Below, piece by piece: positions 62,339 to 64,000 of a stretch of DNA of 64,000 nucleotides. This DNA is from Geodermatophilus sp. DSM 45219. GTDB lineage: Bacteria > Actinomycetota > Actinomycetes > Mycobacteriales > Geodermatophilaceae. How positions within the stretch are numbered: the first letter of the stretch is position 1; each line of letters begins with the position of its first letter. The position numbers and the translations under genes are program-made. The notes under the pieces are model-generated. The model was not told the DNA's origin, made no database searches, and saw nothing but the letters and a program-made list of their open reading frames with translations. The DNA is taken from positions 248,001 to 312,000 of the forward strand of contig NZ_FNIQ01000001.1 in the NCBI RefSeq assembly GCF_900104025.1. The letters are read 5' to 3'.

Positions 62339-62440
62339 GGTGCCGTGGCGGGGTGTTGCGCTTCGATGTGGGCCTCCGCATCACCTTCGCTCGGAGCGCC
62401 CGCGATCTGCTCCGAGGCGCTGCGATCACCCCGGCGACCC

Positions 62441-62635
62441 CTAGGCGGCCGACCGCGGCTGGATGATCACCGGCTGGCGGTCGCGGGCGACGCAGATGCC
62501 GTTCTCCACGATGTAGACCCCGACGTAGTGGCTCCCCACGTACGAGGTGACCTCCTGGCGGCTGGTGCCACCCTTGGTGACCTCGCCGCGCAGCTGACGG
62601 ATCGCGCTGGCTTCGCGGCCGGTGTTCTTCACCAA
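62441..62635 (-). CDS. Small hypothetical protein just downstream of a tRNA gene
   Basis: About 63 residues, likely from the GTG at 62632 (KNTGREASAIRQLRGEV, RQEVTSYVGSHYVGVYIVEN, GICVARDRQPVIIQPRSAA). Codon use is normal for this DNA, and the hydrophobic pattern suggests a small beta-rich fold. There is no Shine-Dalgarno sequence, and the start lies about 10 bases after the tRNA 3' end, so processing of the tRNA would leave a nearly leaderless message. No family recognised. Confidence 0.5.
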   Translation of the reverse strand: MVKNTGREASAIRQLRGEVTKGGTSRQEVTSYVGSHYVGVYIVENGICVARDRQPVIIQPRSAA

Positions 62636-62642
62636 CTGCCAG

Positions 62643-62716
62643 TGCCCCCGGTCGGGTTCGAACCGACGCTGGAACCCTTTTAAGGGGCCTGCCTCTGCCA
62701 GTTGGGCTACGGGGGC
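62643..62716 (-). tRNA. tRNA with UAA anticodon, short variable loop
   Basis: A 74-nt cloverleaf: acceptor GCCCCCG/CGGGGGC with discriminator A; D arm GCCC...GGC; anticodon stem GGCCC/GGGTT with loop CTTAAAA (anticodon TAA); variable region of 5 nt; T arm GTCGG-TTCGAAC-CCGAC. CCA is not encoded. UAA should read Leu codon UUA, but leucine tRNAs normally have a long variable arm, which this one lacks. So the amino acid identity is open. The structure itself is sound. Confidence 0.85.
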
Positions 62717-62739
62717 CGCCGAGCACGCTAGCCCGGCGG

Positions 62740-64000
62740 TCAGCTCGCCCGTACGGTGCCCGACTGCGCCTTGTCCTCCGCCGAGGGCGGCGGCAGCGAG
62801 CCGGTCGGGCCGGCGTTCGCCGCCTCGACGAACTCACGGCGCGGGTCCTGCAGCTGACCCAGCGAGATGACCTCGCGGCGGAACACCGCGGCCAGCGTCC
62901 AGTCCGCGACCACCCGGGCCTTGCGGTTGAAGGTGGGCACCCGGCTGACGTGGTAGGTCCGGTGCATGAACCAGGCCGGCCAGCCCTTGAGCTTCACCCC
63001 GTAGACCTGGGCAACACCCTTGTGCAGGCCGAGGCTCGCCACGGAACCCGCGTAGGCGTGCCGGTAGGGCTCCGGCTCACGGCCCTCGAGCGTCGCCACG
63101 ATGTTGTCGGCCAGCCGCTTGGCCTGCCGGACGGCGTGCTGCGCGTTGGGCGCGGTGGTGGCGCCGGGGCTCTCCTTGGTGAGGTCCGGGACGGCGGCCA
63201 GGTCGCCGGCCGACCACGCGTCGGGCAGCCCGCGCACCTGCAGGGTGGGCTCGCAGACGACCCGCCCGCGCTCGTCCACCGGCAGGTCGGTCTCCTTCAG
63301 CATCGGGTTGGGCTTGGTGCCCGCCGTCCACACCAGGGTGTCGCTGGCGAACTCGTCACCGTCGGACAGCTTCACGACGCAGCCGTCGGAGACCGACTCC
63401 AGCCGGGTGTTGAGCCGCACGTCCATCCCCCGCGCGGTGAGCTGCTTGACCGTCCAGGCGGCCATGTCCAGGTCGACCTCGGGCAGGATCCGGCCCATCG
63501 CCTCGACCAGCACCCAGCGCATGTCGGCGGTCGACAGCCGCGGGTAGTAGTGCGTGATCGCGTAGCGGGCCATGTCCTCCAGCTCGGCGAAGGCCTCCAC
63601 CCCCGCGTAGCCGCCGCCGACGAAGGTGAAGGTCAGCGCCCGGCGGCGGACCTCGGGGTCGTCGGTCGAGCTGGCCGCGTCCAGCCGGGCCAGCACGTGG
63701 TTGCGCAGGTAGATCGCCTCGCCGACGTTCTTGAACCCGATGCCGTGCTCGGCCAGCCCGGGGATCGGCAGCGTGCGGGCCACCGAGCCCGCGGCCATGA
63801 CCAGCACGTCGTAGGACAGCTCGTAGGGCTCACCCTCGATCGGGGCGATGCGGGCCCGCTTCCTGGCGTGGTCCAGGCCGGTGACCGCCCCGGTGACCAC
63901 CCGGCAGCGCGGCAGGGTCCGGCGCAGCGGCACCACGACGTGCCGCGGCTCCACCGAGCCGGCCGCGGCCTCGGGGAGGAAGGGCTGGTAGGTCATGTGC
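62740..64000 (-). CDS. ndh: Type II NADH dehydrogenase / NAD(P)/FAD-dependent oxidoreductase, 5' end missing
   Basis: The gene runs off the right edge; about 420 C-terminal residues are present. MTYQPFLPEAAAGSVEPRHV is internal in NDH-2 (usually about residue 45-65), so the start is beyond 64000. Visible are the second nucleotide-binding motif FTFVGGGYAGVEAFAELEDM, DTLVWTAGTKPN, and AWSAGDLAAVPD (FAD). The C-terminus lacks a strong membrane helix but is amphipathic (GWPAWFMHRTYHVSRV). It passes electrons from NADH to menaquinone without proton pumping. Confidence 0.9.
   Translation of the reverse strand, partial: HMTYQPFLPEAAAGSVEPRHVVVPLRRTLPRCRVVTGAVTGLDHARKRARIAPIEGEPYELSYDVLVMAAGSVARTLPIPGLAEHGIGFKNVGEAIYLRNHVLARLDAASSTDDPEVRRRALTFTFVGGGYAGVEAFAELEDMARYAITHYYPRLSTADMRWVLVEAMGRILPEVDLDMAAWTVKQLTARGMDVRLNTRLESVSDGCVVKLSDGDEFASDTLVWTAGTKPNPMLKETDLPVDERGRVVCEPTLQVRGLPDAWSAGDLAAVPDLTKESPGATTAPNAQHAVRQAKRLADNIVATLEGREPEPYRHAYAGSVASLGLHKGVAQVYGVKLKGWPAWFMHRTYHVSRVPTFNRKARVVADWTLAAVFRREVISLGQLQDPRREFVEAANAGPTGSLPPPSAEDKAQSGTVRAS

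Follow-up and report, generated by a model that had tools for sequence, protein, structure and literature searches.

In reviews, cytosolic tRNA-Leu is treated as a class II tRNA, i.e., one whose variable arm is long (PMC9976931, PMC7609411), an assumption also built into at least one tRNA-seq pipeline (PMC6297222). In E. coli, the leucine determinants are A73, the A15-U48 pair, G18G19, A20a and the contacts between the D and T loops, and variants of tRNA-Leu devoid of the variable arm stay active, making the arm dispensable (PMC9976931). Leucine tRNAs with short variable loops have been encountered before. Animal mitochondria possess a tRNA-Leu(UUR) that is recognised through A73 and A14 (PMC9976931). 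In some mycobacteria, clustered tRNA genes include a tRNA-Leu(TAG) with a short loop, as a comparative study remarked (PMC6582537). Additionally, a study of the toxin MenT3 of M. tuberculosis names long variable loops only for tRNA-Leu-2, -3 and -5 (PMC11541572); this implies short loops among the remaining tRNA-Leu of that species, as found here in its relatives, and that paper does not discuss short M. tuberculosis forms. None of the open-access papers searched gives an explicit account of a bacterial class I tRNA-Leu(UUR), though one may exist elsewhere; annotation of these genes as tRNA-Leu is routine.

The window considered here is a stretch of 64,000 nucleotides from Geodermatophilus sp. 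DSM 45219, near one end of which lies a tRNA gene with the anticodon UAA and a variable loop of only five nucleotides (Table 1). ARAGORN calls it as tRNA-Leu(taa) at 62642-62716 on the reverse strand, and the Rfam tRNA model matches it at full length (E 3.5e-09) with boundaries identical to the base to those drawn by the initial annotation, which had recognised the gene, its anticodon and its short loop correctly.

Table 1. Coordinates of the short tRNA-Leu(UAA) gene and its diagnostic elements in the window.
Feature	Position	Strand	Basis
Short (class I) tRNA-Leu, anticodon UAA	62643..62716	-	ARAGORN; Rfam RF00005, 50.9 bits; same form read in 37/37 family genomes
Anticodon UAA (positions 34-36)	62680..62682	-	ARAGORN
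Leucine-type D arm: stem GCC/GGC, C13 opposite A22, A14 A15, G18 G19, A20a	62691..62707	-	Comparison with tRNAs of the same genome
Variable loop CCAGC, 5 nt, C48 (most relatives U48)	62668..62672	-	Sequence, ARAGORN drawing, comparison
Discriminator base A73	62643..62643	-	Sequence; A73 in 130/132 short homologues

The fold comprises an acceptor stem of 7 bp, a D stem of 3 bp, and anticodon and T stems of 5 bp each, with the CCA end not encoded. The regular cloverleaf initially described thus holds for the acceptor, anticodon and T stems, but not for the D arm, where three pairs are followed by the opposed C13 and A22 as against the usual 4 bp of class I, a configuration resembling that of tRNA-Leu; the D loop, AACUGGCAG, likewise conforms to the leucine pattern. 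The variable loop falls short of the class II hallmark of an arm of at least 10 nt, and the 7/5 combination of acceptor and T stems differs from the 8/4 or 9/3 combination of allo-tRNAs. In single-sequence folding the cloverleaf is not the minimum; covariation, however, does support it: standard pairs fill 99.7% of the stem cells in an alignment of 112 distinct sequences of the short form, most acceptor, anticodon and T-stem pairs occur as two to four Watson-Crick types, and compensatory changes are many. This maintenance of pairing through several Watson-Crick types indicates that the short tRNA is functional rather than a relic.

In comparison with the class II tRNA-Leu(UAA) typified by E. 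coli leuZ and Streptomyces bldA, the window tRNA has in common the anticodon, A73, A14/A15, G18G19, A20a, the 3-bp D stem and the decoding role. However, it has no long variable arm, so that by definition it is not class II and differs in this from the bldA type, and it carries C12-G23 and C13; Streptomyces-like long forms (L317) differ from it. It resembles the animal mitochondrial tRNA-Leu(UUR) as a leucine tRNA for UUR codons without a long arm, but the latter is mitochondrial, floppy and served by a different LeuRS, and no close sequence kinship between the two is claimed. With the mycobacterial tRNA-Leu(TAG) it shares the short variable loop and an actinobacterial setting; that tRNA, however, has another anticodon and is an extra array copy beside a long isoacceptor, whereas the window tRNA is a core, single-copy reader of UUR.

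The remainder of the tRNA set helps to place this gene. The genome (4.97 Mb, 99.99% complete, all 47 tRNAs read) encodes three long-arm tRNA-Leu, with anticodons UAG, CAG and GAG, which read the CUN codons, and both of its UUR tRNAs are short, namely that of the window and a tRNA-Leu(CAA) (G000:C7:202123-202196). The initial annotation had suggested a search for a second, long-arm tRNA-Leu(UAA); neither a covariance model run over the whole genome nor a long-arm pattern recovered any long-arm UUR tRNA-Leu. A tRNA-Leu(UAA) split by an intron, as in cyanobacteria, was also considered and rejected, as no group I intron able to hide one was found in this genome. Hence, apart from these two short tRNAs, nothing that would read UUA and UUG was found there. 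Further, a single gene exceeds the cut-off of the bacterial LeuRS model (leuS_bact), and its 971-aa product has solved bacterial LeuRS among its relatives.

The reading that best accommodates these features, to which a probability of roughly 0.9 may be assigned, is that the window gene encodes a normal elongator tRNA-Leu(UAA), which is charged with leucine by LeuRS and has become class I through loss of the variable arm and a change in the D stem. Once expressed, it would be charged by the single bacterial LeuRS via A73 and the corner formed by the D and T loops rather than via the variable arm, and it would decode UUA as well as UUG, the latter by wobble at U34. The short UAA and CAA tRNAs would then together constitute the UUR-reading capacity of the genome.

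As initially noted, UUA is virtually absent from genes here: TTA was counted 0 times and TTG 147 times in 54,772 codons of predicted genes from a 200-kb stretch containing the window, the TTA count being somewhat understated as the gene caller favoured GC-rich third positions. Three sister species have 1 to 8 TTA codons in the same amount of sequence. Since UUA is so extremely rare, any gene containing it would depend on the window tRNA, which lends some appeal to the proposal that this is a normally charged leucine tRNA acting as a dedicated, bldA-like regulator, whose supply gates a few rare UUA genes. However, in four named genomes (Corynebacterium, Mycolicibacter, Trueperella and Leucobacter) no UAA tRNA other than this form was found, and in these four a loose pattern for the long-arm UAA type likewise had no match. 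Moreover, TTA codons occur in ordinary conserved genes at such loci in named genomes carrying the short UAA form, and the tRNA would be able to read UUG too. The regulatory parallel drawn by the initial annotation hence appears quite unlikely.

The meaning of the UUR codons bears on a second alternative, raised in the same annotation, that the short tRNA carries another amino acid and that UUA, perhaps along with UUG, has a changed or an ambiguous meaning. The short variable loop, the near disuse of UUA and the acceptor stem GCCCCCG, which tRNA-Arg(CCG) and tRNA-Arg(CCU) encoded by this genome also have, are compatible with such a scenario. However, TTG stands opposite leucine in 579 of 753 pairs in aligned genes from 20-kb stretches around the tRNA in the family and one relative, and 28 of 33 TTG sites of the genome itself have a leucine majority (200-kb stretch against three congeners, identical codons left out). 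At loci of named short-UAA genomes, majority-leucine sites account for 39/54 TTA, 566/709 TTG, 122/165 CTA and 4152/5158 CTG codons, i.e., TTG and TTA align to leucine about as often as the CTN codons. The meaning of UUA is thus read from 54 sites in other genomes, since the 54,772 codons of the window genome contain no TTA. As the TTA and TTG sites face leucine much like the CUN codons, UUR is, on the strength of these alignments, leucine where the short tRNA occurs. There is also no long-arm UUR tRNA that would otherwise supply leucine. A role in codon reassignment or suppression was rejected on the same alignments.

Bacterial tRNA-Arg is specified by A20 and C35. The window tRNA has C20 and A35 along with a leucine D arm and A73, and the arginine identity suggested by its acceptor stem was likewise rejected. 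The leucine elements, for their part, are nearly constant among the short forms: among 132 distinct short tRNAs, 130 have A73, 130 have AA at positions 14-15, 131 have the GGNAG motif and 129 have U48. The window tRNA has A73, AA at 14-15, and G18G19 with A20a in the form GGCAG, a D loop confined to the five leucine tRNAs in this genome; it is one of only three of the 132 with C48, which gives A15/C48 in place of the A15-U48 pair important in E. coli. The premise that a long arm is needed for LeuRS recognition is not supported, given the armless E. coli variants mentioned above. Charging with another amino acid is therefore less probable still than the regulatory role, and an unexpected arm length is by itself no evidence of codon reassignment: the window tRNA represents a known tRNA in a variant structure and would leave the genetic code unchanged. 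What had been flagged as an oddity would, going by the codon alignments, be a normal leucine acceptor in actinobacteria.

Each of the 37 family genomes (the window genome and 36 others) has the short UAA tRNA, as read from full sequences, and none of them matches a long-arm YAA pattern; among the 61 genomes scanned, six others of the order do. In a phylum-wide sample of 198 genomes, 26 match the short and 83 the long UAA pattern, these counts being lower bounds because the patterns are strict (about 89 of the genomes match neither). The two forms are nearly mutually exclusive, with no genome in the sample matching both against about 11 expected if they were independent, a comparison made across related genomes of one phylum. 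The one exception is a Rokubacteria MAG with the short form and a long-arm UAA tRNA truncated at a contig end, a joint presence that may reflect mis-binning. The split in arm length follows the isoacceptor and not the genome: both UUR tRNAs are short in the window genome, the genome G040 has a long UAA and a short CAA tRNA, and the genome G056 has a short UAA and a long CAA tRNA.

Beyond these samples, a pattern scan of named genomes recovered at least 119 loci, mostly from Actinomycetes. The matches listed include Mycobacterium, Nocardia, Rhodococcus, Gordonia, Corynebacterium, Arthrobacter, Microbacterium, Brachybacterium, Pseudonocardia and Actinomadura along with Bifidobacteriaceae and others, and the copies in Mycobacterium, Nocardia, Corynebacterium, Arthrobacter, Microbacterium and Bifidobacteriaceae are near-identical. 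The closest named genomes among the listed matches belong to Blastococcus, with two copies (L188 and L198) differing from the window tRNA at few positions; outside the phylum, the listed matches are a small number of MAGs and a single cyanobacterium. The suspicion in the initial annotation that this might be an atypical actinobacterial class has accordingly been borne out, as the short form is family-wide and occurs in many Actinomycetes. That the gene is a pseudogene or a functionless tRNA of a mobile element, as similar short tRNAs on phages and a plasmid and the want of a clear promoter might suggest, is scarcely credible given its presence throughout the family, with the same NADH-dehydrogenase-like neighbour in many genomes, the compensatory changes that keep its stems and the absence of any other UAA tRNA in the window genome.

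Taken more broadly, cytosolic tRNA-Leu does not seem always to be class II: it is likely that many Actinomycetota and scattered other bacteria decode UUR with a class I tRNA-Leu, which would have arisen, perhaps repeatedly, by loss of the arm with a matching change in the D stem, and that both structural classes are charged within one cell by a single LeuRS. If many bacteria, mycobacteria and corynebacteria included, indeed read UUR with a short-arm tRNA, rules that presuppose a long arm misfile a core tRNA. This would also amount to a natural experiment on leucine identity, in that a single LeuRS has to cope with armed and armless tRNAs alike, and should be of moderate interest to tRNA specialists.

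Comparisons within families offer some indications as to the origin of the short form. In an actinobacterial family outside the class of the window genome (f30), some species have the short form and others the long one (e.g., L307 and L297, respectively). The two share the acceptor stem, T stem and anticodon loop; the short form has A9 for G9, C12-G23 and C13 for G12-C23 and G13, and a few changes in the D loop and anticodon stem, and the hairpin of the variable arm is missing. Such class I and class II pairs within one family (L296-L308) thus differ mainly in the D stem and the arm. In the proposed transition, the long variable arm would have been lost with an accompanying change of the D stem, in which the 12-23 pair went from G-C to C-G and position 13 from G to C; this coupling would be in keeping with a tRNA core that went from class II to class I packing, which may be what the D-stem change reflects. 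In a second family (f59), differences between the short and long forms extend over the whole tRNA, so that the short form there could be a replacement. Further, short tRNAs of f30 share the acceptor stem GGGGGCG with their own long relatives, as against GCCCCCR in the short form of Actinomycetes, and this difference hints at possibly more than one origin. In a Rokubacteria MAG, tRNA-Gly(GCC) and tRNA-Cys(GCA) precede the short tRNA-Leu(UAA), an order matching glyW-cysT-leuZ of E. coli, in which leuZ is the long tRNA-Leu(UAA).

Short leucine tRNAs also turn up on mobile elements and in dense arrays. A short tRNA-Leu(UAA) is found on the Streptomyces phage Genie2 (L096, MK359332.1), which thereby supplies a short tRNA for UUA to hosts of a genus with the long-arm bldA tRNA, on a gut phage scaffold (L098, MT836143.1) and on a plasmid of Bifidobacterium longum (L097, NZ_CP065398.1). 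Dense tRNA arrays within 8 kb occur in a Pyrinomonadaceae MAG (L170, 21 genes) and in Moorena bouillonii (L150, 12 genes), and the leucine tRNAs in both, including that with the UAG anticodon, are short as judged by gene length. These arrays, which lie outside Actinobacteria, may represent additional sets of tRNAs in which tRNA-Leu is class I.

In terms of genomic neighborhood, an NADH-dehydrogenase-like gene adjoins the short tRNA in many of the family genomes; in the window it ends at 62740. A scan of 62400-62900 for promoters and terminators returned nothing, its sigma-70-like consensus being poorly suited to actinobacteria. The gap between that gene and the tRNA contains the hexamer TAGCGT (62725-62730, reverse strand), 8 nt before the tRNA, a possible -10 box which the consensus scan did not call; similar hexamers, TAGCNT or TGGCGT, are seen in many relatives. 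On the other side, a possible 63-codon ORF (62441-62632, reverse strand) starts 10 nt past the 3' end of the tRNA, and the DNA 3' of the tRNA varies among relatives.

The second short UUR tRNA of the genome, tRNA-Leu(CAA) (L074, L325), has peculiarities of its own. An A31-C39 mismatch reduces its anticodon stem to 4 bp in all six genomes of the genus that were read, and the same mismatch recurs in three other families (L344, L345, L347); tRNAs with 4-bp stems provide a comparison case (PMC13092985). The one genome of the genus without a match to the CAA tRNA hosts instead a short tRNA of the leucine type called with the anticodon UCA, with the loop CCUCAAA and C33 (L089, G020:C457:30973-31046), which could possibly read UGA, derive from a CAA tRNA by damage, or be a relic. 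Additionally, a further copy of the 3' half of tRNA-Leu(CAA) follows some 20 nt downstream in the window genome (G000:C7:202216-202250), and such a repeat is also present in four others (G009, G015, G018 and G050), that in G009 lying 5.4 kb away. With these repeats, the tRNA-Leu(CAA) gene looks like a probable integration site with remnants of attachment sites.
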